Shown here piece by piece: positions 11,834-47,155 of a DNA stretch of 64,000 nucleotides. The stretch lies in contig VRMN01000001.1 of assembly GCA_008690995.1 (NCBI GenBank), forward strand, positions 2,976,001-3,040,000, read 5' to 3'. Each line of letters begins with the position of its first letter. Position 1 is the stretch's first letter. The notes under the pieces are model-generated. The model saw only the letters and a list, made by a program, of their open reading frames with translations, was not told the DNA's origin and ran no database searches. Both the position numbers and the translations under genes were made by a program. This DNA is from Porphyridium purpureum (Eukaryota > Rhodophyta > Bangiophyceae > Porphyridiales > Porphyridiaceae).

Positions 11834-13450
11834 TTATCGAAAAGGAGGAAGCGACGGTGACAGAGGTGGCGATGACTGCGCAGATCCTGCCGCGAGGCTC
11901 GTGCAGCGTCCCTGCATGCGCTTCTGATGCTTATTCAAGTTTGACCGCAGCGCAAACTTTCTGTGGCAAGTACATTCAAAGTCTTTCCGCTGCTCATGGA
12001 TCGTTCTGACGTGTGAAGACAAATGTCCAGACTGAGAGAAAGTAAGCGCACATATCTTGCAATTAAAGCGACGCTCTTTCTCGTGAATTGTTCGCGTATG
12101 GCGTCGCAATTCCTTATTTCCTGCGAAAACTTTTGCGCACTGGGCGCACATATACCGCTCCGCACGTGAGGCAGATTCGAGGCAAGAGGCGCCTTCGTCT
12201 GCTCCTGAGGTTGCTGGAGACCAATGCCCAGGCCGGACTGTATTGAGGTCGGCCATCAACCTACTATTCGAGTTATCGGATGAATGTACTGCAGACGTGT
12301 CGTATGAATTCGCGGCTTCAAAGGGACCCCACCTCCGGTCCTTTCCGGAAGCGCCATCCCTTCGAGCGTGTGCTGATTTGGATGCCGCCGCCACGCCATT
12401 CTTAGGGGGTACTTGAAGCATGTCGTGGTCAAACCCGTCTTGCAGGCTCTGCTGAAACATGGCAAAAACGTCTACGTCCTGAGTTGAAGTGCTCCACACA
12501 CCTCCTGCGTGGAGGGGGAGGCCTTGCACCGCATCAGCGCCGGTTCTTTCATTGCCCGCTTGCTCCTTCAACGCCGGCGAGTCCTCCAAAAGGCAACTGC
12601 GACGAGCGAACGCCACCTTACTGGTTCTATGAAAACAAAGCTGCTGCAGCTTCTGATAGTTCGCGTATTCGTGGCCCCAGTAAGCTTTGCAGCTAGTATT
12701 GACTACGTGTGAGAAAGTTCCACGGCCTGCACGGATATCGAGTGTCATCGATGTGGCACCTGGACTGAACGCACGGATACCGTTTCCCCATTCCTCCCAT
12801 GATAAGTCCACCGTCTTTGCAACCTCATCAAACGGTGGTGCGTCTGCCTCGTAAACGACCTTGACAAGCGTCTCGAAAGTGGCGCCGTTTGGACTGGCGG
12901 CAAGGCCCAAAAACTCGTCTACCTGTGGGTGTCCATTGATGTTGCGCTTCAGCATGAAGATTGGCTGACCGTCATGCGTGCGTCCTACCGCCAAGAACCC
13001 GTAACCCTGTGCGGCGCGGAACCCCACAAAGCGAAACGCAGGCCAAAGGGCCGACTCTTGCAGCGGCAGAGCGGTCATCGATGTGAAAAACGCACCATAC
13101 ACAAACGGGCCACGAGAGCCCTGATACAGAAACGCGGCCATTGCCGTTGGATTGAACAACTCGGACGTTGTGGTATCGACCACCAACGCGTTCTGAAAGT
13201 CCTCTCGCGACGGCATGTGCGCGAGGCGACAACCATCCATCTCGCTATCAGCCACCCTTTGTGACGACGGTTCAGAGAGCCTTCGGACTGCCGCCGCTGC
13301 TGCGGCCGCCTCCGCAGCAGCGCCGCCACCGTCATGCGGACTAAACACACGACGCGCGATTGCGCGACCGCCCTCATCGTCCCCCATCAACCAATGGTAA
13401 CACTCATCGCTCAGCGCCAGTCGCAACACGTTATCGGCCAGCTGCGGCAT
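11834..13450 (-). CDS. C2H2 zinc-finger protein, paralogue 1
   Basis: A 538-residue putative nucleic-acid-binding protein. The start is the first ATG at 13450; the frame to 13498 begins TTG. Three zinc fingers lie at about residues 433-515: CAQCAKVFAGNKELRRHTRT, then CKICALTFSQSGHLSSHVRT, then a third, altered finger CTCHRKFALRSNLNKHQKRM ending in GRC, with only one residue between the first two Cys and a terminal Cys in place of His. The N-terminal 230 residues share an uncharacterised region with the neighbouring gene (SDECYHWLMGDDEGGR, FVYGAFFTSMTALPL, WPAFRFVGFRAAQGYGFL). The linker is Ser-rich and disordered. It is a tandem duplicate of the next gene on the same strand. DNA targets are unknown. 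Confidence 0.8.
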   Translation of the reverse strand: MPQLADNVLRLALSDECYHWLMGDDEGGRAIARRVFSPHDGGGAAAEAAAAAAAVRRLSEPSSQRVADSEMDGCRLAHMPSREDFQNALVVDTTTSELFNPTAMAAFLYQGSRGPFVYGAFFTSMTALPLQESALWPAFRFVGFRAAQGYGFLAVGRTHDGQPIFMLKRNINGHPQVDEFLGLAASPNGATFETLVKVVYEADAPPFDEVAKTVDLSWEEWGNGIRAFSPGATSMTLDIRAGRGTFSHVVNTSCKAYWGHEYANYQKLQQLCFHRTSKVAFARRSCLLEDSPALKEQAGNERTGADAVQGLPLHAGGVWSTSTQDVDVFAMFQQSLQDGFDHDMLQVPPKNGVAAASKSAHARRDGASGKDRRWGPFEAANSYDTSAVHSSDNSNSRLMADLNTVRPGHWSPATSGADEGASCLESASRAERYMCAQCAKVFAGNKELRRHTRTIHEKERRFNCKICALTFSQSGHLSSHVRTIHEQRKDFECTCHRKFALRSNLNKHQKRMQGRCTSLAAGSAQSSPPLSPSLPPFR

Positions 13451-13687
13451 CCTCACATTCGCTTGCACGACGAGACCTATGCCTTCACGTGCTTTCAAGC
13501 GTGGCCCGAGCGGTCACACCCTCTTCCTTCTTTTGAAGCAGCCTCGCGTTCCTTGTACACGTGTTTGTCAAACTCGCAAGAACGCAAATCATCCATGTGA
13601 CTGTCAATTTGACTTCGACGCAGCGCTGGGGTAGCCGAATGTATGGAATTGGTGGACTTGTCTGCCTCCCTGTGGAGGACGCACGAT

Positions 13688-13792
13688 ATGAACTGGGCAT
13701 GATCTGGGCGTGATCTGGGCATGAACTGGGCGTGAACTGGGCATGAACTGGGCATGAACTGGGCACGAACTGGGCACGAACTGGGCGCGAAC
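13688..13792. repeat. 11-bp minisatellite (ATGAACTGGGC)n
   Basis: About nine and a half head-to-tail copies of an 11-bp unit, ATGAACTGGGC with variants at positions 1, 2 and 5. It lies between the two zinc-finger paralogues, about 135 bp downstream of paralogue 2. Open frames across it are repeat-driven artefacts. Confidence 0.9.
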
Positions 13793-13927
13793 AAGATGGG
13801 CTAAAGATATCGTACTTATGATACAGGGAAGATTTATCAAGTGCTGGATGACTGCGCTCCGGCTGAGCGGTACTTGGTGAGGCACCGAAAGTGGCGCTCA
13901 ACGTGTATTGAAGTCACTGTGCGCCGG

Positions 13928-15526
13928 TCACGATTTCTCCAAGAGAGATGAATGCTGAGCTTCGCTTTCGCCACCTTCCGCGCATTCAGAGGAGATGGAA
14001 GCAGCAACAAAGAAAGAGGTTGGACATGTCTCTCCTCGACTACACCGTCCCTGCATCCGCCGCACGTGCTTGTTTAAATTTGAGCGAACGCCAAATTTTC
14101 TATGGCACGAGGCACACACAAAGTCTGCTCGAAGCTCGTGAACGCTGCGGACGTGGGTGAGTAGATGGCTGGACTGTGTGAATACTTTGCCGCAGTGCTT
14201 GCACTCGTGCGTTCTTGCACGCTTGTGGTCCGAGCGCAAATGCTGGCGAAGTTCACTTGGCCGTGAAAACCCGCGTCCGCATTCACCGCAACGTTGGGTT
14301 TGCGAGTGAGCATTAGGGGAACGGTCCACGTTGCGAATGATTGATTCTGGCTCGATTCCGTGCACAGTGTCGGCGTCGTTGCTCGAATGCGACGAATCAA
14401 GTACATTCATGAGTTCCTCCAGAGTATATTGGCTACCAAGATCGGCGCCATTCCAAAAGGATTCGGCTGAGATCCAATCGATGCCGAGCAATTGATACAA
14501 GCCCAATGGCACACTGCGTTGCGGCGCAGATATCCTACTCACTCGATCCAGAAACAATGCCTTGAGCTTGGGGAATTCAGGATAGTGTGAGCCAGTCACG
14601 GCGCCTAGCGCGAAGGGCGCCTTTTTCGAAAAAAGTTCCTCATCCTGGCCTGTGCGAATCGATATGAAGAACAGCGGGCTGTTCACACGCATCCGATTCC
14701 GCGACTCGATAAGACTTTGTGCCCAAACGGCCCAGGTAACCGGCTCGGCAAGCTGCGCGTCGCTAAAAAGTGCGCCGGCTTTGTGCCTCCATTCTTGCGC
14801 CCGCGCAGAACTGCACAGAGGCTCACAGGCACCGACAGATTCAAGCGCTTCAGCGCGCGTCTCTGGCGGCGAGCCGCTGACGTTCGAGTCGACATGGTCC
14901 GCGGCGTCGACAGAGCGGTCAGCAGGTTGAATAGAGACACGTAAATCAAACGCTACGCGCGTACCGTGGTAGCGTAGGTTGTGGTACTGATCCATTGCGA
15001 CCTTGCCAGAGTTGAGCGAGCGACTGAGTAAGGTAATAGGCAGTCCGTCTGAGTCGTGGCCCACGCACAGATATCCGTACCCCGCGCGCATGCGAAAACC
15101 CACGAAGCGATATGCTGGCCACGCGGTAACACCTGGCTTGAGCGGCAACACGCAGGCGTTCGTGAACATGGTGCCCAGTACGAAGCGTCCGACCTGTCCC
15201 TGAGGAAAGTAGACCGCACACAAGTTGGGACTAAGCGACGTGAAGTCTGCGTCGACAATGACCGCGGCATTCATCTCTGCCTGCGTGGGCACGTAGCTAA
15301 GGCGCGACTCGGACTCGTTGCTGCAGTCTGCCACAAGCGCAGCACCATGCCACTCCGGCTTTGCTGCCGCCGGTGGCGAGCGTGTCACGCCGCCAAACAT
15401 GCGCTCCGACAGCCGCGCGCCCGCGGCGTCACCAAAGAGCCATTCGTAGCAGTGGTCGCTCTGCGCAATCTTGAGTATCCGCTCGGCAGTGCGCGCAGAC
15501 GCCGACCCGCTGCCTACCGCGGCCAT
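13928..15526 (-). CDS. C2H2 zinc-finger protein, paralogue 2
   Basis: A 533-residue paralogue of the preceding zinc-finger protein, same strand, separated by about 480 bp. Start is the first ATG at 15526; the open frame to 15601 starts GTG. N-terminal region shared with its neighbour: SDHCYEWLFGDAAGAR, GTMFTNACVLPLK, WPAYRFVGFRMRAGYGYL. Three fingers at about residues 412-495: CGECGRGFSRPSELRQHLRS, CKHCGKVFTQSSHLLTHVRS, then CASCHRKFGVRSNLNKHVRR ending GRC. In this copy finger 3 keeps two residues between its first cysteines but also ends in Cys, so C2HC is the likely ancestral state of that finger. No other domain is recognisable. The pair probably arose by local duplication followed by strong divergence. 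Confidence 0.8.
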   Translation of the reverse strand: MAAVGSGSASARTAERILKIAQSDHCYEWLFGDAAGARLSERMFGGVTRSPPAAAKPEWHGAALVADCSNESESRLSYVPTQAEMNAAVIVDADFTSLSPNLCAVYFPQGQVGRFVLGTMFTNACVLPLKPGVTAWPAYRFVGFRMRAGYGYLCVGHDSDGLPITLLSRSLNSGKVAMDQYHNLRYHGTRVAFDLRVSIQPADRSVDAADHVDSNVSGSPPETRAEALESVGACEPLCSSARAQEWRHKAGALFSDAQLAEPVTWAVWAQSLIESRNRMRVNSPLFFISIRTGQDEELFSKKAPFALGAVTGSHYPEFPKLKALFLDRVSRISAPQRSVPLGLYQLLGIDWISAESFWNGADLGSQYTLEELMNVLDSSHSSNDADTVHGIEPESIIRNVDRSPNAHSQTQRCGECGRGFSRPSELRQHLRSDHKRARTHECKHCGKVFTQSSHLLTHVRSVHELRADFVCASCHRKFGVRSNLNKHVRRMQGRCSRGETCPTSFFVAASISSECAEGGESEAQHSSLLEKS

Positions 15527-32116: not shown

Positions 32117-32404
32117 TCAACCGACGAATTCTGTCGTCGAGGCAGCAGTCAGCGGCGACTTGAGCACTGACTGAAAGACGGCGGTCACATCGTCGACCGG
32201 CTCTGCACCCAAAGTTGAGCTTTTCGACGGATTGTCACGCCGCTGAAACGCGAGTGATCCCATTCGCGCACGAACCCTGAACTTGGTCTGTTCTTCTGCC
32301 ATCGCGGCATACTCGTGGCGAGCCTCGCTCCGTGAGCGCTTCCGTGTGTTCGGGCGGACGACAGTGCGAGAGCGTCCTTGCCGCCCAGCGGCTTCTTTTT
32401 CCAT
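32117..32404 (-). CDS. Small basic protein family, copy A
   Basis: A 95-residue unknown protein from the first in-frame ATG at 32404. It shares with copies B and C a basic core, here GRSRTVVRPNTRKRSRSEAR, directly followed by HEYAAMAEEQTKFRVRARMG, then a Ser-rich linker and an acidic/hydrophobic tail (DDVTAVFQSVLKSPLTAAS). The basic core resembles a nuclear localisation or nucleic-acid-binding segment; the following part is predicted helical by its spacing of Ala, Met, Glu and Arg. No known domain is recognised; a degenerate bZIP-like region was considered but the diagnostic Asn-x7-Arg spacing is absent. A TATA-like CATATAAG (minus strand, 32494-32487) lies 83-90 bp upstream of the ATG. Confidence 0.65.
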   Translation of the reverse strand: MEKEAAGRQGRSRTVVRPNTRKRSRSEARHEYAAMAEEQTKFRVRARMGSLAFQRRDNPSKSSTLGAEPVDDVTAVFQSVLKSPLTAASTTEFVG

Positions 32405-34205
32405 GGCTTCGTTCCTTCTTTCGTGGAAATATTCATTACTCGCATCTGTCAAGCAACCTGTCCACGAATCTGTTGACCCTGTCGAGCTTATATGCCTTTA
32501 CCGCGTCTTCGTGCGGCTCTTGCCTCGCGCCAGCCTGAGCGACGTGAGGGCCACATTGACGCGAGGTGAGCGGCACGCGCACCCTCAGAAGACGCAATCT
32601 AAAAAATATCAGTTCTACGCAGAGAAAGATCCTCCTTTCGACGCCACGAGCCGCAGCCGTCCGTGCGTTCCGCCGTTTTCGCAGACTGGCCGTCTGAGTC
32701 AGGAATGGCCAACACCCGCCGAAGCCTCAGCAACACCCGACAAGTGTCTGTGGGTAATTGGAGTCCTACCATGACTCGGACGTTCGTGGGAGTCTGCAGG
32801 ACGACGTTGACGGAATCAGAATGTCGAAATTGGGGTTCTGCGTAGAAACGCCTCGGGAAGCGAGTTTGTGTGGCTGGATGCTGCAAGGGATCGATTGAGG
32901 GCAATGGATCCGACGCTCGAACGTCCCATGGGGAGCGAAGACAGCGCAACGCTGAGCACGATGGCCACAACCGTGGCGGACTCGACGAGGCACTTTGACG
33001 ATTCTACACTACCTCCCTAACGCTCTCGACGACAACGAACATGCCAAAGTCAGTCGCAATAGAAAATCGGTCGCTTCCAAAATGTTGGCCGGGTCCAGGA
33101 AGCTTCCCACGCCGCACTTGCGCAGCGCCGTCTCCGTGCGTGGACAGTGATATCCGCTGCTAGGTTGGTCGACATCCCTGAGGTTGGTACCGCACATGTA
33201 GTTCGAGGCACGACAGAGCCAGGTTCCGACGTGCAAAGCTCAACTGCTACACGACTTGATTTATCCCAGGACAATACATTTTTAGCATCATGATTGACCA
33301 CCTCGCTCTCTAATTGCTCTGCAAGTCTTTTGCTGGAAGCTATTCTGGGAGTTGCACGTCCATGTGCGAGTTTTCATCAGCGCCGTCGAGCTTTCGAGTC
33401 TTCCAACTCGCCTCATCGTTGCGCGCACAGATACGTGCACAGGTCGTGCGAGCGGGGCGCAGAAGAGTTGTTTCTGGCTAAGATACCAGCGCTCGGAAAA
33501 GGACACATGGTCATACAATATGTTTCATGCATCAGTTAAGACGATGAGCGCGACGCAGACCGTGGCGTAGCTTCTGTCTCTGCTCGCCGACATGGTTTGA
33601 GCTGGGTGAGGTGTTGCCAGGTGCTCTCACCTAGCCCGTCAATGACACGGGATACCACACGCGACACAGGTGCTTCAAGGACACGGTCCATGCTTGGCAT
33701 ATTCTCGGACTGAGTTGCTCCCCGAGCACTATACAAGGCGCAGCCGGTCCGGTCGTTCGGCTGGTGCAGCGCCAGCCTACCTGTATCTCTCCATCCTAGT
33801 CTGCTTTCTCGCCGTGGCCACAACCGCTCGGCATGTTCCTACCATCGGTTGCTCGTGCCCACCACAAACGTGCCTGCCCCGTCATCGTACCGATTGTGGT
33901 CTTCCAGCCTCTGTTACATGCTCCGGCATCGGCGCCGAGGATTTTCGACGACGAGGTCATCGAGCGCACCCGTTGGTTTCCTTCGCAGCTTTAGCATTCG
34001 AGGAGTTCCGGTTGCGTCACGCAGTTAATCGCGCAGATCTTCTTCCATCACGTGTCGGTGTAACCGTGTAACTGGCGTCGTCGGCACTGTACTTCTCACG
34101 CAAAACTCTCACTGTACCTGGGGACCGATCGCACACGCTTCCTCTGAACGTTCACCGGGAGGCACGAGTGTAAATACCCACGATGCACACGATCATGTTA
34201 TCATG
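32405..34205. other. Gene-poor stretch between copies A and B
   Basis: Contains short protein-like open segments that cannot be joined into a gene, for example about 32835-33020 plus (EFVWLDAARDRLRAMDPTLE) and 32780-32890 plus in another frame (DDVDGIRMSKLGFCVETP). These look like remnants of a decayed gene of unknown family. Two CACTGTAC copies occur at 34085-34092 and 34110-34117. Confidence 0.35.
32487..32494 (-). promoter_or_regulatory. TATA-like box of copy A
   Basis: CATATAAG on the minus strand, 83-90 bp upstream of the copy A start codon. Confidence 0.4.
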
Positions 34206-34568
34206 TTATTCGAGGGCCTTGAAGCTTGTTTCTTGATCGGACCACTCGCTTGACGCGAGCAGGTTGTCTTCGTCCGCTGATGTCGACACTGACGTCGACG
34301 ACTTCAGCACAGATTGTAAGAAAATGGTTAGCTCTTTGACGTCATGTTCGCTCGTGCAGTTGATGATGGGCAAACTTGCGGAGCGCTTGGCTGTCTCGGA
34401 ACCCAAAGTGCCCCGGCGCTCCAAGTATTTGATCCGCGCTTGACTTTCCATCAGAATAGCGTGCTCGTGGCGCGCCTCACTCCGTGAGCGCTTTCGAATG
34501 TTGGAGCGCGCGACAATACGAGAGCGACCCCGCCGTTCGGCCGGTGCAGCGATAACGTCTCTGTCCAT
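34206..34568 (-). CDS. Small basic protein family, copy B
   Basis: A 120-residue unknown protein from the ATG at 34568. Core: RRGRSRIVARSNIRKRSRSE then ARHEHAILMESQARIKYLER, nearly identical in its KRSRSEARHE stretch to copy A. The C-terminal part is acidic with HDVKELTIFLQSVLKS, matching DDVTAVFQSVLKS of copy A, so the family has two conserved blocks: a basic N-terminal core and a short amphipathic C-terminal block. Same orientation as A, 1.8 kb away. A TATA-like TATATAAC lies on the minus strand at 34671-34664, about 96 bp upstream of the ATG. That coding and promoter parts are both retained argues for an expressed gene. Confidence 0.68.
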   Translation of the reverse strand: MDRDVIAAPAERRGRSRIVARSNIRKRSRSEARHEHAILMESQARIKYLERRGTLGSETAKRSASLPIINCTSEHDVKELTIFLQSVLKSSTSVSTSADEDNLLASSEWSDQETSFKALE

Positions 34569-34663
34569 GACAATACTCAATCCAGATTGTGTCCTCTTGC
34601 CTGTCTATTCAACCTGTCCAAGCCCTTCCGCCTATCCGTCTCCGGTCTTCGGTTGTTGTGCTA

Positions 34664-34671
34664 GTTATATA
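34664..34671 (-). promoter_or_regulatory. TATA-like box of copy B
   Basis: TATATAAC on the minus strand, about 96-103 bp upstream of the copy B start codon. Confidence 0.4.
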
Positions 34672-35180
34672 CCATCTATCTCCGGCTGCCAGATTTAAAT
34701 ACCGCTCCCGAGCGGGAGCACTCATCGTGCACCGACTGCGCGCGTTCTACATGTTCCTTCGCTCGTGCGCTACCGGTCGGGCATCGATGGCCCTGTCGGT
34801 CGACCGACACAGGAACCCTCCGAGAGACGACGAACGCCGCTTCGCTCTGCGAGTAACCAGAAATTCCTCCTGTTTACATCTTCATCGGCTCGCGACGCCC
34901 CATTCACCCGTGCGGGTGAGCATCAATTAGCGAAAGAGCTGCGCTGACGTGCTCGGAAACTTTCAATTTGTTTCTGCTTTGTGTTTCTACGCTCCCCGAA
35001 AAGTATCAGTGGGGCGAAATCACGCGACCCATCTGCGCATTGTCGTCCGGCGTCATTGGGTGAGCGACGAAAGTTGATGTAACCGGCGTATCCACGTGAC
35101 GTATGCGACGTGCAACTCGACGGCGCCTTATCGGCAGTTTTCGCTCACTGGCGGAGGCATGCTATTGTAACCAACGGAAG

Positions 35181-35194
35181 GGCCTTATAAGGCC
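35181..35194 (+). promoter_or_regulatory. Palindromic TATA region GGCCTTATAAGGCC, copy C
   Basis: An exact 14-bp palindrome containing TTATAA, 122 bp upstream of the copy C ATG. An AGCA-type short repeat (AAGCAAGCAAGCAAGC) follows at about 35237. Confidence 0.45.
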
Positions 35195-35315
35195 GAGCGC
35201 GGATGTTTCGTTCGGGAGGGCCTGGCAGACAGGATGGCAAGCAAGCAAGCAAGCAGGCAAGACGGAGTAGCAGACACGGGAAGCTGGAGACAAGAGAACG
35301 AACAAGAAACCAGAA

Positions 35316-35603
35316 ATGATGTTGGAGCAGGAGGTCCGACAAGGTCGATCTCGATCTCGGGGATGCGCTGGCGTGGGCGCTCACATTTGCAAGCGCTCAC
35401 GGAGCGAAGCGCGCCGTGAGTACGCGAAGATGACAGAAAGCCAGGCGAAAAATAAGTATCTGCAGCGCACATCGCAGCTGCGCGCGTCCATCACGTCCTT
35501 GAGCGATTCGGACAGTGGAGCTGATGTTGATGGGCTGACTACGTGCCTAGAAAGCCTGTTCGAATCGCGGCCGCTAGAGGGTCTGACGACAGCTAGCGAT
35601 TGA
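35316..35603 (+). CDS. Small basic protein family, copy C
   Basis: A 95-residue unknown protein on the opposite strand to A and B. The ATG at 35316 opens MMLEQEVRQGRSRSRG, followed by the family core KRSRSEARREYAKMTESQAK and NKYLQRTSQL, then Ser/Asp-rich linker and the C-terminal block DVDGLTTCLESLFESRPLEG. It aligns with A and B over both conserved blocks, with the linker length variable. A palindromic TATA region is 122 bp upstream. It is convergent with the decayed copy D. No known domain. The overlapping minus-strand open frame (35381-35920) is antisense and has no family resemblance. Confidence 0.68.
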   Translation: MMLEQEVRQGRSRSRGCAGVGAHICKRSRSEARREYAKMTESQAKNKYLQRTSQLRASITSLSDSDSGADVDGLTTCLESLFESRPLEGLTTASD

Positions 35604-35959
35604 GCCGAGCCACCAATGAGCAAAGATATTCGTGTATAAATGTATCTGCATTGTGAACACATCTCTCTTCGTGCTTCAGTAAACGGAGCGCTTCGGATCG
35701 CTCCATGTGTGCATTTGATGATTTCTGCAACCAGTTCCGTCATCCACACTAATCCGCCTTCATGGCCTGCGGCATTTTTGCTTCGTTCAATCACTTGTGA
35801 GCAATGTTCGGAGTAGGCATCTGCGATCACACCGCCGCCGATCGCAAAGCTCGGCATGCTACCAGCATCCGAACATGGTCCTAGATTTACGACGAGATGG
35901 CGTGGTTTATCTTTTTCCAAATGGATTTGCTACTCTACTTCGTGAGAATCAATCTGCTC
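35604..35959. other. Convergent gap between copies C and D
   Basis: A 356-bp stretch between the convergent copy C and remnant D; no gene recognised. Confidence 0.35.
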
Positions 35960-36294
35960 TCAATAGATTGCGGTTTGTGCTTCCTTGCCAAGCTGCTCCG
36001 AGTCGCTCGCGGATGTCGGTTCCGACAAAACAGGTGGCAATTCAAACAGGCCTTCGAAGCGCTTTGTCCATCAACGTCCGACAAGCTCGGAGAGCTGTAG
36101 TGGCCCTAAACCGAGGTTGTCCCATCTTGCCCACACGTGAGATACAGCTCACGTCTCTCCTGATTTTCAATCATCTTTGCGTGCTCGTTACGCGCTTCTT
36201 GCGTGAGCACTTTCGAACGCGAGCAACGACACCAACAAGTAACACATGCACGGCATCAAGATCGACCTTGTCGCATCTCCTGCTCCACCACCAG
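35960..36294 (-). pseudogene. Small basic protein family, decayed copy D
   Basis: A fourth copy on the minus strand. Its first part reads VVEQEMRQGRS, matching LEQEVRQGRS of copy C; the core is degraded but EARNEHAKMIENQE is recognisable; the C-terminal block survives as FEGLFELPPVLSEPTSASDS, matching LESLFES...TASD of copy C. In-frame stop codons and at least one frame change separate these parts and no TATA-like box was seen upstream, so it is probably a pseudogene. The closer match to C than to A or B suggests C and D are the most recent duplicates, now in convergent orientation. Confidence 0.65.
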
Positions 36295-38029
36295 GTCTCG
36301 TTTCTTGTCCATTCACCTTTGTTCGGCTGCTTGCGTCGGCTGCACGCACTTGCCTGTGTACCCTCGAGACTCCGTCCGCGCTCGCACTCTCATGACTTGG
36401 TTCCCACACCGCTGCGTCATTTCGCGCGCTCGCCACGCACCATCGATGATGATCAAGCAATGAAGCTACTCCGTCCTTCGCAAGGTATCGAGTCCCTTGA
36501 GTACCACGCTACTCAAATCCGTGCAAGCACCAAAAGTTGCCCGCAAGCAATGGTAGAAAAGCAGCCGCTCCTTAAAATTCTGAACATTGGCAACGTTTGG
36601 GCATGTGGATGCGCCCACCATTGAGGACGAAGAGGTGCAACCAAAAGAATTAGACCCGGCGGTGCACGATGCTCTCCGTCTAGTCGGTGATTCCCGGTCG
36701 ACCCGATCCGTCCTCGCAGCGGCGCGACGTCGTGGACGAGAGCGCGGCCGCAGGGGTCAGGATGGCGTAGAACGGTCAGTCTGTGTCGACCACGCGTCTG
36801 TATCGGTCACATGATGTCCGAGTGTTTCCTCCTGATAGTAAAGATATCCTGTCACAAGCGAGAACGTACGTTCTTGCAATCGACAGCCACGTCGGGTATC
36901 TACCCACGCGCGCGCCGACCGTTCTACGCACATGCACGTCATGAGACGTGTGCGCGCGGGTTACCCAGACGTCCAAGCGCTATCGCCGTCGACTCGCGGC
37001 TCGTCGAAACATGACGCGCGCCAAAGATAACAGGACTGTCAAACAAAAATAGGTGTGCGGGTCACTGCACACTCGGGAACGTGCACCGCGCGGCACCCAA
37101 CAGGAGAAAGCATGGGCCACAACCTTGCGTAGCGCTGGACACGGCGACAAAGTTTTCCAGGCGGCCAAGTCATGAATGTTGGCCGTTGGCGCGCGCGCTT
37201 TGGGCTTCTCAGCGCGACGGATGTCAGACGCTGAGCACTGTCGTATGCAGGGCTCTGTATCCATCCCTAGAAATCTTTTCACTCCCAACACTTTGGCCAA
37301 GTCGGTCGTCCGGGAGGATGCTGAGCTTCCCCTGTATGTCGCCGGTGCTTCAAACTGGCAGAGCTGGGAACAGCCCCTGAGAAGTTTCGCTCGCATGTTT
37401 TCCCGAGCAAGGACTTTTCCAAGGCAACATGGGCCCAGAACAGCGACGAAGGCTATGCGGAGAAGAATAGTTCCAGCCAGGTCAGCCAAGCAGAGCCGAG
37501 CGTGGAGCGAGACGAATCACATCTAGGTGTTGGCCGATGCGAGCGTTGCGTGAAAGTTACATTCATGGGCGAGGAAAAGCATTGTCACTAGTTGTCCAAG
37601 TCAAAGTGCACGAGAGTAGGACGCTTGTCGCACCTGCGTCATTGTCAGGGCGGAGGTGCAGGAAGCAGTTGGGGTGCTTCTGCGGGCAACTGGAATGGTA
37701 GAAGTTCGGGAATGGGCAAGGCGGTGGTGCAGTAGCAAGAAAGAAGGGCAAGAAACCTGACACGCCAGCAGAGGAGAAAGTGGAGAAGAAAGACCAGCAG
37801 ATCGAAGAGGATTGAAGTACGAGAAGGAACTCTCTGAGTACGAGAATTCGGCCGCCGGCATCCGCTCAGCGCCGAGGCGGTGCTCCACAAGTCGTTCGCG
37901 TCATTGTTCTCGTGCGCTCACGCAGCGAAGCGAGTCATGAAGACTCTGTGATGAAAGAGAACGGAGAAAGGAGCAAGCAGTAGCGGCGCGTGTGCGGTGA
38001 TGGATTTGGTTGCGGCACAGTGTGCTCCT

Positions 38030-38930: not shown

Positions 38931-39602
38931 ATGGCTGCTGCGTTTGTGAGCGGAGCGGGCGCGGCGCTGGGCCGCGTCAACAAGGTGGCGGCGATCCAGA
39001 GCAAGAGCGTCAAGGCAGCGGTGCCCGTCAAGGCCGGCCGCATCGCTATGATGGCGGAGATGTCCAAGAGCATTCCGTTCCTGGAGAAGCCGAAGAACCT
39101 GGACGGCTCTATGGCCGGCGACGTAGGCTTCGACCCACTGGGCTTCTCCGACAAGTGGGACGTCAAGTTCCTCCGTGAGGCTGAGCTCAAGCACGGCCGC
39201 ATCTGCATGCTCGCCGCGCTCGGCTTCATCTACCCGGAAATCATGGGGGGCAAGTCCATCCCGTCTCCAGAAGGTTACTTCACAGAGCTGAACCCGCTCA
39301 AGGCCGTCAAGACCATCCCAACCGCTGGTCTCCTGCAGATTGTGCTGTTCGTCATGGTGCTTGAGGCTATCTCATGGAACAAGGTCTTCATGGACAAGAC
39401 GAGCGCGCCAGGAGACTTCAAGTTCGACCCACTGGGCCTCAAGTCCCCCAAGATGGAACTCTCCGAGGTGAAGAACGGAAGATTGGCAATGATTGCCGTA
39501 GGTGGCATGATTCACCAAGTGCTCCTCACCAAGCAACCCATTCTTGCGCAGCTCAAGAACGGGCCGTACCTGCCAAAGGAGTCCATGTTCCCTATCTGGT
39601 AA
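38931..39602 (+). CDS. Red-algal light-harvesting chlorophyll a protein (LhcaR)
   Basis: A photosystem I antenna protein of the plastid thylakoid. The 223-residue precursor has an N-terminal transit region of about 40 residues (Ala/Val/Lys-rich, ends near VKAGRIAMM), then the LHC motif GDVGFDPLGFSDKWDVKFLR. Helix 1 carries REAELKHGRICMLAALGF with the chlorophyll-ligating Glu and Arg; helix 2 is LLQIVLFVMVLEAISWNKV; helix 3 carries ELSEVKNGRLAMIAVGGM, the mirror ExxNGR motif; a second FDPLGL precedes helix 3. The order and size fit the three-helix LhcaR proteins of red algae rather than two- or four-helix relatives. Intronless; the strong, regular codon choice fits high expression. A TATA box lies about 150 bp upstream. 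The ATG at 38931 is the biological start; the frame upstream lacks transit-peptide character. Confidence 0.95.
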   Translation: MAAAFVSGAGAALGRVNKVAAIQSKSVKAAVPVKAGRIAMMAEMSKSIPFLEKPKNLDGSMAGDVGFDPLGFSDKWDVKFLREAELKHGRICMLAALGFIYPEIMGGKSIPSPEGYFTELNPLKAVKTIPTAGLLQIVLFVMVLEAISWNKVFMDKTSAPGDFKFDPLGLKSPKMELSEVKNGRLAMIAVGGMIHQVLLTKQPILAQLKNGPYLPKESMFPIW

Positions 39603-41417: not shown

Positions 41418-44162
41418 ATGGAGATTTACAGGGACAGTGATGTGCCTGAGGCGCACGCGTCCGTGCGTCCGGCAAGGCTGCTGGCGCCGCCGCGCGTGCT
41501 TGGTGAGCGCGACATGAATGTCGGGGCGCTGGATCTGCTCGTGCACAAGCACATGGATTCGAAAGCACAACGCGACGCCCGCGCGTCCGAGCTGCAGCTG
41601 CAGCTGCGGGGCACGGTCGAGAAGAGGGCAGAAGCGAACCTGAGTGCTGTCGGAAGAAACAACGAGACTCATGCTGGGATTGTAGCGACGGGGAAAACCC
41701 ATGGGGGGTCAAGCGCCGTTTGCGAAGCAGAGCAAAACCACGCGCACACCGCTGTCACGCAGCAGGACTCCACCAGACAAGGCTCTGCAAGGCCCGGAGA
41801 GGACACAGCCCGGGCCGTGTCCACGTCGGTCTTATCTGATCCTTTTGCAAATGGACTGGCGGCAGTGCCGTCTCAGCGGCTTTTGCGTCGAGCCAATCAG
41901 TTGGAGAGCGCGCTGACGGGAGGAAGCAGAGCAAACGCGGCTCCGCTGACGCCACACAGCACAAGCACGGACACCAAGAGCCACATTGCCGTAAAAGACA
42001 ATCCATGGACTCTGAGTGCCAAACCGTCTTCGACCCGGAGCGCATCGCGTGATGCGGCAATTGGATCAGATCAAAGCACAAACAAAGTGATCGCAAAGTC
42101 AAACGCATGGACTTGTGAAGTGTCTGATCTGCTTGACAACTTGGACGCGCACCTCCCTGCTTCACTTGCAGAGCGTGTAAGCCGATTGGGCGCCATTAAC
42201 ACTCCACAAAGCGAGCCCGCGGGCCTGCGGAGCAGCAACAAGCAGCGCCATGTCTACAGTGAGAGCACCGAATATGGACGAAACGGCGTCCAATCCGACC
42301 GAGGAAGCGTTTCGCGCCCCGAAGCAGCAATTGATGCAGCAGATGGGAAGGCCCCGTCTCGTGCAAGCGTGCTCCAATCATCTCGCGGTAGTACAGGCGG
42401 AAGCGAAGCGACGGCGTTTGGGGTCAAAAAGGAGAGCCCTGAAGACCATGACCATGCATTCAAGACTCCAAAACGCCGACTTGGTGAGGCATTCGAGTCT
42501 GCTAGCATGCAGGTGAACGGAACAAATGACACAGAGTCTCATATTCCACGTCTTGATCAGACAGACTTGCCTGAAGACGTGCGCAGTGCGCTTGAGCAGC
42601 TGTGCAGCGCTGAGTCAAACGCCAACTGGTTGACCATGAGCCAATGCTTTCAAACCTTGACAGATCACGCGCGAAAGGAGGTGCAAAACGAGAACACGAG
42701 CACGAAGCTTTCGTTCAGCTTCAGCTTAAAGGCGCTTGAAAAAATGCTCGTCGCGATCGCCACTCATCTGACTGCCTCAAGTCGTCCGTCTTTGCGACGG
42801 AATGCATGTGAGCTCCTCGAGGTGTGTTTAATTCGAGCACAAGCAGTGGGTGTGAATTGTCACGAGCTCGCGGACCCCGCATGTAGCCAAGTAGCATGCG
42901 CTTTGTACAAGGTGCTTTGTGCTGGGTCGCGGATTGTGCATGAGGTCGCTGCTCTCGCGCTGGCGGCCGCCGTGCAATGGACGGACTTACGCTCACTCGC
43001 TGCATTTGACAGGCAAGAGCTCGAAGTTTTGCGCAGGAGCTGTGAAGGCGTGATGGATAGCCCGACATTAGAGGATTTGCCGCGTTCCAGGATTCTCTCC
43101 TTGCAGCAGAGTGTTGAGAAGCAAATGGCTTTACATGATGTTGCTCCGGCAAAAGTGATGAATGAAATGAAAGCAGAATCAGACCATGGCACGGCGACAA
43201 CGGAGCTTGCCACGACTTCCATCTCACCAGCAGAACAGTCAGCGGTCGATGCAGCTGCACCCGAGCCTGTGAAGCTTGTGGTGGCTCGTGAGCAAGAAAC
43301 GATTGAAGATTTGCAAGCAAGGAATTCGTTTCTTATCAATCGATTAGAAGAGTTCAAAGCGACGCTCGAAAATCTGTGGCACAACAACCCGTACTCGCGC
43401 GAGCGTGATGAGCTCCTCGCGCGATTGAACGAGCGAGAAAGCGAAAACGCCCAGCTCAAGGCAGAAATGTTTGGCTACGACTCCAAGTACAAAAGTCTGT
43501 ACAAGCGGTATCAAGAGCAAACGCAATTAGCAGAGCAGCGACACGCAGCGCGAGACGAAGCCGCGGCGAGTCGAAGGGAGCTCCGCGAAGCGTCAAAGCA
43601 GCTCATTGAGTGGCGGCAGCAAAAGCATACCGAGATTGAAAAGTACAAGGTGCTTCTCAAACAGAGCACGGAACGAAGCGAACAAGCGCAACGCTCGGCG
43701 CTTGCGGAGCAAGATCAGTCGAAAGCATTACGGAACGAACGTGACGAGCTTGCTGCGCGAGTCGAACAACTGCATCAGGTTGAAAAAGTATGCGAAGACC
43801 TTCGGGAGCAAGTGCGCGTGCTGGAGCAAAAGTCCTCACAGGAGCAACCAAAACTCGAGCAGCTCGGCCGTCAGCTCGAGGAGCGCAAAGGAGAAGTGGA
43901 TTCACTGATGAAACAGAACCAGATGCTGAAAGCGCGCACCGAAGAACTAGAGCGGAACACGATCGAGCGCAAGCGCTTGGCGGACGAAAACCAGCGTCTC
44001 AAAGCGAGTGCGTATGATAGCGCCAAAAGAATTGAGGATCTCGAGACGAACTTGAATTACGAACGGCACGCGAACTTGAAGTTGGAAAAGCTTGTTGAGA
44101 CAGCCAATGAAAGGAGCAACTATTTGCAGGATCTGCTAGATCAGCTGCAGTCGCGCGTGTAG
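41418..44162 (+). CDS. Large coiled-coil protein of unknown function
   Basis: A 914-residue protein I cannot assign to a family. Residues 1-390 are Ser/Ala-rich and disordered, with short conserved-looking pieces (VSDLLDNLDAHLPASLAERV, NAWTCE). Residues about 390-560 are helical and leucine-rich (LPEDVRSALEQLCSAESNAN, RRNACELLEVCLIRAQAVG, VHEVAALALAAAVQW), consistent with a small armadillo- or TOG-like array. Residues about 620-914 are a long coiled coil of E/K/Q/R/L heptads starting ETIEDLQARNSFLINRLEEF and ending LLDQLQSRV. The layout suggests a cytoskeletal, centrosome-like or nuclear scaffold role; this is inference from composition only. The ATG at 41418 is the first of the frame. Confidence 0.75.
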   Translation: MEIYRDSDVPEAHASVRPARLLAPPRVLGERDMNVGALDLLVHKHMDSKAQRDARASELQLQLRGTVEKRAEANLSAVGRNNETHAGIVATGKTHGGSSAVCEAEQNHAHTAVTQQDSTRQGSARPGEDTARAVSTSVLSDPFANGLAAVPSQRLLRRANQLESALTGGSRANAAPLTPHSTSTDTKSHIAVKDNPWTLSAKPSSTRSASRDAAIGSDQSTNKVIAKSNAWTCEVSDLLDNLDAHLPASLAERVSRLGAINTPQSEPAGLRSSNKQRHVYSESTEYGRNGVQSDRGSVSRPEAAIDAADGKAPSRASVLQSSRGSTGGSEATAFGVKKESPEDHDHAFKTPKRRLGEAFESASMQVNGTNDTESHIPRLDQTDLPEDVRSALEQLCSAESNANWLTMSQCFQTLTDHARKEVQNENTSTKLSFSFSLKALEKMLVAIATHLTASSRPSLRRNACELLEVCLIRAQAVGVNCHELADPACSQVACALYKVLCAGSRIVHEVAALALAAAVQWTDLRSLAAFDRQELEVLRRSCEGVMDSPTLEDLPRSRILSLQQSVEKQMALHDVAPAKVMNEMKAESDHGTATTELATTSISPAEQSAVDAAAPEPVKLVVAREQETIEDLQARNSFLINRLEEFKATLENLWHNNPYSRERDELLARLNERESENAQLKAEMFGYDSKYKSLYKRYQEQTQLAEQRHAARDEAAASRRELREASKQLIEWRQQKHTEIEKYKVLLKQSTERSEQAQRSALAEQDQSKALRNERDELAARVEQLHQVEKVCEDLREQVRVLEQKSSQEQPKLEQLGRQLEERKGEVDSLMKQNQMLKARTEELERNTIERKRLADENQRLKASAYDSAKRIEDLETNLNYERHANLKLEKLVETANERSNYLQDLLDQLQSRV

Positions 44163-44485: not shown

Positions 44486-47155
44486 TCAAGAATTGAGGCA
44501 CGTGGTGTTGTCGTCCGCAACAAACCAGTGCCTAAAGGACTTTGCGCGCGAAATTTTGGCGTCGAGACCAATGATAAAATTATTGTTCACCACAACGGGC
44601 CTCTCGAAAGCGTGTTGTGCCTTTGAATTCGTGTACCAAGTCCCGTCAACCACAGTGCCTACAGGCAGCGCACAAAAGCGCGTCGTATCCGCCAACAGCC
44701 AGTAAAGTGGCGGAAACGACGCCTTCCTGAAAAGCCACGCAAAGACAGACTCAAAGCGACTGCTCAAAGTTTGCGTCAATATGCGTGAGATAATGCTTTG
44801 GTCATTCTCCACATCAATTCGTCTGCTGGGGTGTGGTTCGGTTTTCATGCGCGCTCTAGCCACTGCAAGAGCGCTTTCAAACTTGGACGCCACGAGCCCG
44901 GCAACAAGCGCGCTTTGTGACGAGCCCGAGAAGAACAGAAAATTGCCTCCGATCTCGTTTCGCGAGTTCAGTGCGCCTATGACATCGCACTTTGACTGCC
45001 GGTGCATATCGACAAGGTTCGGAAGGGGATTCTGCAGCCACACCTGGTCCAGATCGAACAGCAGCACGCTGATGCCCATATTTACAAGCGTGCGCACGAC
45101 GACCGCGCGCCGGTGCATCAGGCGCCAGTACGACCACGTACCGAACTTGCGTTCTTCGGTCTCGACAGACGTCTCCCCAACTTCCTCCCGTTCTGAAATA
45201 TCCACAATCAGCGCATGCGGGTACGAACGCCGAAGAAGCGAAAGAAATTGTGCATCGCCGTATGCTAGCAGTACCAAGCCAGGCAATGTCCATTGATGGC
45301 CAGCAGTGTTGCAATGCCAGCTATTCAGCATCCCTAGAAAACTGCGCGAGACAAGGCTAAGCACCACCGAATTATTGTGCCTGTGCGAGAATTCGGCAAG
45401 GTTCGTATTCATCGTGAAATGCTTGATTCCATGTCGACAACGAAGCATGGTGTCGCTGCTTTTGCTCATGGCTGTCCCAGTCAAATCCAGAGCCGCGTTT
45501 GCTACTTGATTTTCGATCAAACGCACGTTTCCCAGTGCTAGAGCTTGACTCAATGCGCCCAAGACCGGAGCATTTAACGGAAAGAGCGGCTCCTGAAGTA
45601 CGCTGTCGGCGCGGGTTAAAAGCAAGCGCGCACCCAGTGGATCAAACAACGAGATCAGACCAACTTCAAAGCTGTGCGCAAATTCCTCCAGAAACCGGAA
45701 AAGCGTGCGGAAACTCGCACCCTTTGCCAAGCGGATTCCACGGCTGCCGTTTCGATGCCAAAGCATGGCGTTTGGTGCGTTCATATGGTAAAAGCGGTGG
45801 AATTGATCCCAGCTATCGGCATGTACCGCAAGGGTTTGAAGATTGAACCATCGGTACTTTTCATTAAGGCGCCATATGTGGCACTGGAGCGGCACAGTCG
45901 TCCCGTCGATGGCTGCAGCTACGTCGACGACGAAGAATTCGTACTTGCAGCTGGGTGAAAACTGGGACGTGTATGAAGTATCGACATGGTCTGCGGTAAT
46001 CCATAGCTCGCTGAATGCAAACCCACGAGCCAGTTCTGCACGGGATGCAAATGCAGACTCCACCCATGCAATGAGCGCCGGAGATAGCGTCACGGCATCG
46101 GAACGAAGAAACAAAAGCCTCCGGTCCACTCTCGCCAAGAAGCCCTTCTCGTGTGAGCTTCCAGCTCCGCTGCTTCCACTGGCAGCTGTACTTTTTGACC
46201 TTGAGCACAGGGCATCCCGCAAATTCCCATACACACTTTGCGGCGTGTACATCTCGACCCACGCCACGCCAGCGTTGTAATCGGGCGGAAGAAGTTTTAG
46301 AATGCGAATGCCATTCCGCCAAGGAACGCGAAGTGCCTCGCGCATGAACACAGGTATTGCGTCACGCGCGCCAGAACTGTCGTACGTCACCCAGACTTCG
46401 ATATCGACACTTACGTTTTGCTGCAACGGCGTCGCCACTCCGATTACAGAAAAATTCGCTTGTGCGGCTTGCACGATACGATCAAGTTCCCAGTATAGAC
46501 GCTCTAGTCTGCGTATCGAAGGTGTAATGGTCGTCGTAATCACCAGGCGCTCGGAAGACGAGCAAAAGCTGTCTCTATACGCATCTGTGCTGAGCTGGCT
46601 GTCAAATGCGTTTGCCAATGATCGAAACGATACGCTTGACTGGTCCATCGAGCGCTTGTACACGCGTGGTCGATCGAGAATGAATTTGAGCTCATTCTCC
46701 AGCGACTCACGAGACAGTACCGGCATGGCGATGCGCAGAGCGAGGGCGTACATCACACCACACGCAGCCAAGCTGAGCAACAGAACGAGCCAAAGAGAGA
46801 ACACAGGCGGTTGCTCGTTTCCGTTGCTTCCGGGAGAGGGCGAGCTCGCTTTCGGGGGAAGCCAGATGATCCAGTGCTGCGCGCACCATCTGCGCGCGCG
46901 CGCTAATTTCGACCGGACAACCTGTTGCCAACTGATGCCAGAACTAGTACCTGCATGACTGCTACCGGCGTTACCACAGATATTTCCACTGCTGCTGTTG
47001 CTGCTGCCAAGCATCGCATTTCCGCGCGCCGCGGCAGCAAGACTCAGATGCGCAGGAGATGCGTCGCCGTCAGGCGTGGCGCCTCCTTCATCTGCGCCAC
47101 AATTTTCGCTCCGCAGCACGCGGACGCGCAACAGGGACATGTCACCCCTTTGCAT
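44486..47155 (-). CDS. Type II membrane glycosyltransferase, GT77-like nucleotide-diphospho-sugar transferase
   Basis: Such enzymes add sugars to polysaccharide or glycoprotein in the Golgi. The first ATG is 47155 (the frame to 47254 starts GTG), giving 889 residues. A single anchor lies at about 119-147 (FSLWLVLLLSLAACGVMYAL). The catalytic domain is C-terminal: LPGLVLLAYGDAQFLSLLRR, then KFGTWSYWRLMHRRAVVVRT and near residue 700 GISVLLFDLDQVWLQNPLPN, where DLD is the DxD metal/nucleotide-sugar motif of this superfamily. Further C-terminal features are DVIGALNSRNEIGGNFLFFS and a His-Trp near the end. Plant GT77 relatives act on cell-wall polymers. The 550-residue lumenal middle part is not recognised. 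Donor and acceptor cannot be deduced. Confidence 0.8.
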   Translation of the reverse strand: MQRGDMSLLRVRVLRSENCGADEGGATPDGDASPAHLSLAAAARGNAMLGSSNSSSGNICGNAGSSHAGTSSGISWQQVVRSKLARARRWCAQHWIIWLPPKASSPSPGSNGNEQPPVFSLWLVLLLSLAACGVMYALALRIAMPVLSRESLENELKFILDRPRVYKRSMDQSSVSFRSLANAFDSQLSTDAYRDSFCSSSERLVITTTITPSIRRLERLYWELDRIVQAAQANFSVIGVATPLQQNVSVDIEVWVTYDSSGARDAIPVFMREALRVPWRNGIRILKLLPPDYNAGVAWVEMYTPQSVYGNLRDALCSRSKSTAASGSSGAGSSHEKGFLARVDRRLLFLRSDAVTLSPALIAWVESAFASRAELARGFAFSELWITADHVDTSYTSQFSPSCKYEFFVVDVAAAIDGTTVPLQCHIWRLNEKYRWFNLQTLAVHADSWDQFHRFYHMNAPNAMLWHRNGSRGIRLAKGASFRTLFRFLEEFAHSFEVGLISLFDPLGARLLLTRADSVLQEPLFPLNAPVLGALSQALALGNVRLIENQVANAALDLTGTAMSKSSDTMLRCRHGIKHFTMNTNLAEFSHRHNNSVVLSLVSRSFLGMLNSWHCNTAGHQWTLPGLVLLAYGDAQFLSLLRRSYPHALIVDISEREEVGETSVETEERKFGTWSYWRLMHRRAVVVRTLVNMGISVLLFDLDQVWLQNPLPNLVDMHRQSKCDVIGALNSRNEIGGNFLFFSGSSQSALVAGLVASKFESALAVARARMKTEPHPSRRIDVENDQSIISRILTQTLSSRFESVFAWLFRKASFPPLYWLLADTTRFCALPVGTVVDGTWYTNSKAQHAFERPVVVNNNFIIGLDAKISRAKSFRHWFVADDNTTCLNS

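Follow-up and report, generated by a model that had tools for sequence, protein, structure and literature searches.

The window analyzed here, a 64-kb stretch of the Porphyridium purpureum genome (C43:2976001-3040000, on the 5.72-Mb contig C43), carries members of an undescribed family of small basic proteins, and searches of the 22.16-Mb, 46-contig genome recover further members on contig C1. The sequence evidence confirms that the intact copies, genes A, B, and C in the window and E1 and E2 on C1, form a real gene family, with selection evident at the E1/E2 pair. In this model unicellular red alga, a selected family of this kind makes a concrete candidate for regulation specific to the lineage, and genes this short are readily overlooked by annotation. 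The published assembly of strain CCMP1328 comprises 22.1 Mbp in 52 contigs with 9898 gene models, and the same source names a public RNA-seq data set for P. purpureum, SRX242707 (PMC6811547).

Genes A (32117..32404, minus strand, 95 residues), B (34206..34568, minus strand, 120 residues), and C (35316..35603, plus strand, 95 residues) are represented in the list of open reading frames (ORFs), the alignment, and the genome search, and each runs from ATG to stop. The alignment contains 25 invariant columns. KRSRSEAR is identical in all three proteins, and GRSR, KRSRSEARxE, and a hydrophobic C-terminal block are common to them. With B as the query against the 22-Mb genome, A is retrieved at E = 1.7e-12 and C at E = 7.6e-7, and C retrieves a decayed copy, D (~36067..36294, minus strand, two in-frame stops), at E = 6.4e-6. 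The E-values obtained with B and C rule out chance as the source of the likeness among these copies. About 60 bp of the 5′ flank of D also resembles that of C (69% over 202 columns, a span that includes the 5′ part of the gene). The initial annotation had described three intact genes of 95, 120, and 95 residues and one decayed copy with a common core; ORFs, alignment, and E-values bear this out, and the observation is extended by the C1 members and by a further decayed copy in the window, F (37858..37989, plus strand, core RSRSEASHE, one in-frame TAG), which came from the genome search and was absent from the original list.

The C1 members were found with the same query. B matches C1:1830754 (E = 6.3e-5) and C1:2207754 (E = 4.7e-4), which are the cores of two intact 140-residue ORFs, E1 and E2, that are 92% identical. 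Purifying selection on the encoded protein is clear at this pair. Their alignment is gap-free over 140 codons, with nonsynonymous divergence (dN) of 0.039, synonymous divergence (dS) of 0.199, and a ratio ω of 0.197 (bootstrap 0.08-0.42). The 30 base differences include 18 at third positions. Counting the stop, 130 of the 141 codons keep their residue, whereas neutral simulations, with an equal number of differences placed randomly by the substitution pattern of the flank, average 120.2; one of 5000 reaches the observed value (P = 0.0002). Residues 1-71 show no amino-acid changes and eight synonymous differences, the linker (residues 72-112) has 9 of 41 residues changed, and residues 113-140 have 2 of 28. 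This pattern indicates that constraint falls on the N-terminal part with its core as well as on the C-terminal helix, so that the pair reveals the constrained parts of the protein. The ω of 0.20 likewise indicates that the family is protein-coding and under purifying selection at that pair; a ratio near 1, which the initial annotation had associated with decaying repeats, is not seen where dN/dS is well measurable.

The corresponding evidence for A, B, and C individually is weaker and supportive only. Synonymous sites are close to saturation (dS 1.3-1.9, dN 0.53-0.63), and amino-acid identity exceeds a crude neutral simulation (P = 0.019 for A/B, 0 of 3000 simulations for A/C, and P = 0.008 for B/C), though the protein-guided alignment favors identity. 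Two results count against reading all copies as selected genes. Codon bias surpasses the 95% point of 0.038 only in C, E1, and E2; A (0.009) and B (0.016) score lower than any of the 17 training ORFs (0.023-0.095) and fall inside the noise range given by overlapping near-open intergenic frames (mean -0.008, standard deviation 0.029). Moreover, DNA identity between E1 and E2 is 89%-96% per 100 columns in the ORF versus 64%-82% over the next 1.1 kb downstream, and approximately 280 bp upstream are also well kept at 87%-93%. The kept block therefore takes in the promoter side, and gene conversion may add to the DNA contrast by leaving a patchwork of tracts that differ in age. The ω of the pair is unaffected by such a patchwork.

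These data bear on the proposal that the window ORFs are functionless remnants of decaying repeats, which we consider improbable. Two of the five window copies (D and F) are broken, A and B lack codon bias above noise, and a stop-free frame can persist under neutrality, with P(no stop) between 0.025 and 0.045 for each pairing among A, B, and C. The proposal conflicts with the purifying selection in E1/E2 and, subject to the alignment caveat, with the excess identity among A, B, and C.

The upstream regions also speak against decay. The sequence scan locates TATA-like boxes at -88 from the ATG of A (TATAAGCT, 32485..32492, minus strand), -103/-101 from that of B (TATATAAC, 34664..34671, minus strand), and -130 from that of C (TATAAGGC, 35186..35193, plus strand), matching the 80-135 bp distance initially reported; E1 and E2 both carry one at -124. 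TATAW thus occurs 88-130 bp upstream of all five intact genes versus four of the 29 control ORFs (Fisher P = 4.5e-4; 1.7e-3 with E1/E2 counted once), values that are indicative because the family had been seen before the range was set and the control ORFs start at mechanically assigned ATGs. The controls, 23 from the window and six from the two C1 duplication loci, were scanned from -160 to -60. One of the four positives has just 67 bp of upstream sequence, and a fifth control is positive out of range, at -171/-169. By chance, TATAW is present in 5.4% of draws of a 105-bp strand from the region. No TATAW is seen in the 240 bp upstream of D or the 270 bp upstream of F, but the contrast between intact (4/4) and decayed (0/2) copies is not significant (P = 0.067).

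All five members contain GR[SP]R, which reads GRPR in E1/E2. Over the first part of the protein, taken as far as 30 residues past the beginning of KRSRSEAR, A, B, and C each have a net charge of +8, and E1 and E2 have +3 and +4. An acidic tail had been proposed for the family; this holds for B and C, whose tails have a net charge of -6 each, whereas that of A is barely acidic (-1) and those of E1 and E2 are not (0 and +1). The C-terminal block is present as described, although its wording, LxSLFES or FLQSVLKS, is better given as [VFC][FL][QE]S[VL][LF][KE]S in A, B, and C, with LVRLLES in E1/E2. The tails of all five members contain ΦxxΦΦ followed by xS. AlphaFold2, run with the five sequences, predicts helices at residues 29-63 and 74-89 of B and at 41-52, 58-80, and 105-123 of E1, the remainder being coil. 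In both models predicted helices sit on the core and on the C-terminal block, and B has one ten-residue block at a predicted local distance difference test score (pLDDT) of 90. The models therefore point, with low confidence, to a basic helix starting in KRSRSEARxE and a C-terminal helix with ΦxxΦΦ.

We tentatively favor, at somewhat less than even confidence, a family whose proteins are small, basic, and for the most part disordered and would act as nuclear adaptors or antagonists in transcription. The GR[SP]R and KRSRSEAR segment may carry the protein to the nucleus and bind DNA or chromatin; docking of a co-regulator would fall to the C-terminal helix, with a MED15-type KIX domain as one candidate. 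The proteins, presumably expressed from the TATA promoters, could then serve as small adaptors or antagonists. The suggestion of a nuclear regulator in the initial annotation agrees with this predicted anatomy, its other suggestion, a partner or antagonist of a larger protein, may also apply, and its interpretation is partly supported, the function of the family being one that we infer.

The KIX connection stems from the fact that ΦxxΦΦ helices are a KIX-docking activation-domain motif. The family resembles such activation domains in its predicted C-terminal ΦxxΦΦ helix, seen in all five members, and three KIX_2 domains score above the cut-off in the genome (C13:143583-143813, C18:227635-227856, and C1:1325366-1325563). 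It differs in that no known DNA-binding domain is attached, the motif is common by chance, and docking is putative. AT-hook and other small basic chromatin proteins are alike in being basic, with GR[SP]R in all members and models that are mostly coil; the family departs from AT-hook proteins by its single GRxR and has no AT-hook Pfam match at E ≤ 10, though motifs so short can escape a whole-protein E-value, and the GRPR of E1/E2 is a four-residue resemblance. The more specific idea of red-algal mini transcription regulators, which would combine an undescribed basic DNA- or chromatin-binding helix (KRSRSEARxE) with a helix docking on a MED15-type KIX domain and undergo fast birth and death, appears unlikely. 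Both of the Q-rich proteins scanned match KIX_2, one of them also matching Med15_N, and this unicellular red alga may thus possess two MED15-like paralogues.

Several results weigh against the nuclear adaptor model. The AlphaFold2 models are poor (mean pLDDT of 64 for B and 58 for E1, with predicted template modeling scores of 0.26 and 0.21), and a Foldseek search, which covered the B model, returns two matches with a best E of 6.7. Shuffled tails carry ΦxxΦΦ in 27%-52% of cases, and 4%-13% have the following xS; because the motif is this common, the KIX-docking idea is weak. Neither the CBP-type KIX domain (PF02172) nor zf-TAZ (PF02135) has a match in the genome. At E ≤ 10, Pfam yields no family, DNA-binding or other, for any of the five members, in keeping with their description as unclassified. 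Finally, the nuclear location of the proteins is itself something that we infer.

A cytosolic or plastid-related inhibitor or adaptor, in which both helices bind and switch off a specific enzyme or kinase without DNA binding, is a somewhat less probable explanation. Small disordered inactivating factors provide the model, and the family proteins are similarly short, basic, and largely coil in the predictions, with no DNA-binding Pfam match. The sequence R-x-G-[ST]-L after the core, which we take to be a possible phosphosite, is retained in A, B, and E1. It is not retained in C (RTSQL) or E2 (RAGCL), however, and the invariant KRSRSEAR looks more like a nuclear localization or nucleic-acid-binding stretch.

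Far less probable than either is descent, with strong divergence, from a known family of transcription factors such as TEA/TEAD or bZIP. A search of PDB sequences gives five matches, none significant, among them a weak profile similarity to the TEF-3 (TEAD) chain 5gzb. This match spans 45 positions, whereas a TEA domain has ~70 residues, and its E-value of 0.27 is at chance level; the best match is to a bacterial Rok chain (E = 0.2). The bZIP basic-region signature, N-x7-R, is absent from the alignment by eye. Pfam gives no match to either family at E ≤ 10, and both TEA/TEAD and bZIP are very improbable.

Searches for relatives were similarly negative. Among 5.8 billion predicted proteins, B matches itself only (7980 and 7990 candidates scored) and E1 matches none of 54 candidates. 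One exact 8-residue core pattern gives 30 matches in IMG/VR viral contigs, and one exact core stretch gives 67 in prokaryote genomes, none of them confirmed; because a single exact core stretch was used, these scans are blind to relatives with an altered core. The string KRSRSEAR appears in no paper, and none of the papers listed for Porphyridium purpureum or for MED15/KIX in red algae is recognizable as describing the family. As far as these collections reach, then, the family is seen solely in P. purpureum. The term orphan accordingly refers to Pfam, the PDB, predicted proteins, viral contigs, and prokaryote genomes; the absence of homologues raised in the initial annotation holds for these collections, with eukaryotic genome collections, including other red algae, outside the search. 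The family resembles lineage-restricted (orphan) families of small genes that turn over by birth and death in its short length, its lack of relatives in the collections searched, its local and segmental copies, and its broken neighbors, and differs from them in its measured selection and in the TATA-like box at every intact copy.

The genomic distribution of the copies supports expansion through local and segmental duplication with loss by decay, consistent with the birth-and-death pattern suggested from the window. E1 and E2 reside in a 3.77-kb inverted segmental duplication of 84% identity, found in two copies ~375 kb apart (C1:1828375-1832139 and C1:2206525-2210259), each with a family member and a spliced gene for tubulin binding cofactor A (TBCA). 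This gene, the second conserved block of the duplication, is present as two exon pieces that match PF02970 at E = 4.5e-12 and E = 1.4e-6, the latter at 29.0 bits, slightly below the cut-off of 30.3. A decayed relative of E1 with two stops was found by genome search at C1:1829760-1829984 (E = 5.2e-5). The tally for the genome is five intact (A, B, C, E1, and E2) and three decayed members (D, F, and the C1 relative). These counts are lower bounds, derived from five protein queries (A, B, C, E1, and a hand-made 89-residue composite) and a degenerate 27-base core pattern. The exact pattern has six matches, namely A, B, C, F, E1, and E2. With up to two mismatches it has 97 forward and 103 reverse matches, similar to the reversed control (101 and 90), and nothing credible is added among the matches listed. 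Two further matches were rejected: C44:171881 (E = 0.16) was judged to be chance from the ORF list, and C11:726952 (E = 0.27) lies inside an ORF that resembles SRP54 by eye. The weak matches at C1:145984 (E = 0.18) and C43:3915184 (E = 1.1) are also outside the tally. The first TBCA exon and its flanks are 94%-100% identical per 100 columns, above the rest of the duplication, possibly through recent gene conversion or strong constraint.

The clustering of copies on both strands of gene-poor DNA and the duplication of E1/E2 at a distance could also suggest cargo or remnants of a virus or transposon, an origin that we regard as very improbable. The one exact pattern tried against IMG/VR yields no relative, the duplicated segment holds an ordinary gene and exists in the two copies found, inspection of its ends by eye reveals no obvious terminal repeats, and the window region has no DNA match outside itself. 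A mobile element was dropped as the explanation for the C1 copies once TBCA was found within the duplicated segment.

The five window copies are flanked by a radical-SAM ORF (Pfam E = 4.3e-7) on one side and a light-harvesting (LHC) gene on the other (38931-39602), which matches PDB chain 7y5e_12, from a P. purpureum entry, along all 174 chain residues (E = 6.3e-115). Eight other ORFs of 116-289 residues overlap this interval, and none has a Pfam match at E ≤ 0.1 (shorter ORFs were outside the scan), so that gene-poor is a fair label; the ORF coordinates likewise uphold the placement of the family on both strands. Elsewhere in the window, two adjacent ORFs of 538 and 532 residues (11834-15526) are alike in layout, with C-terminal C2H2-like zinc fingers, and by eye are apparently tandem duplicates. 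Also by eye, a 914-residue ORF (41418-44162) has the look of a coiled coil, and an 889-residue ORF (44486-47155) that of a glycosyltransferase.

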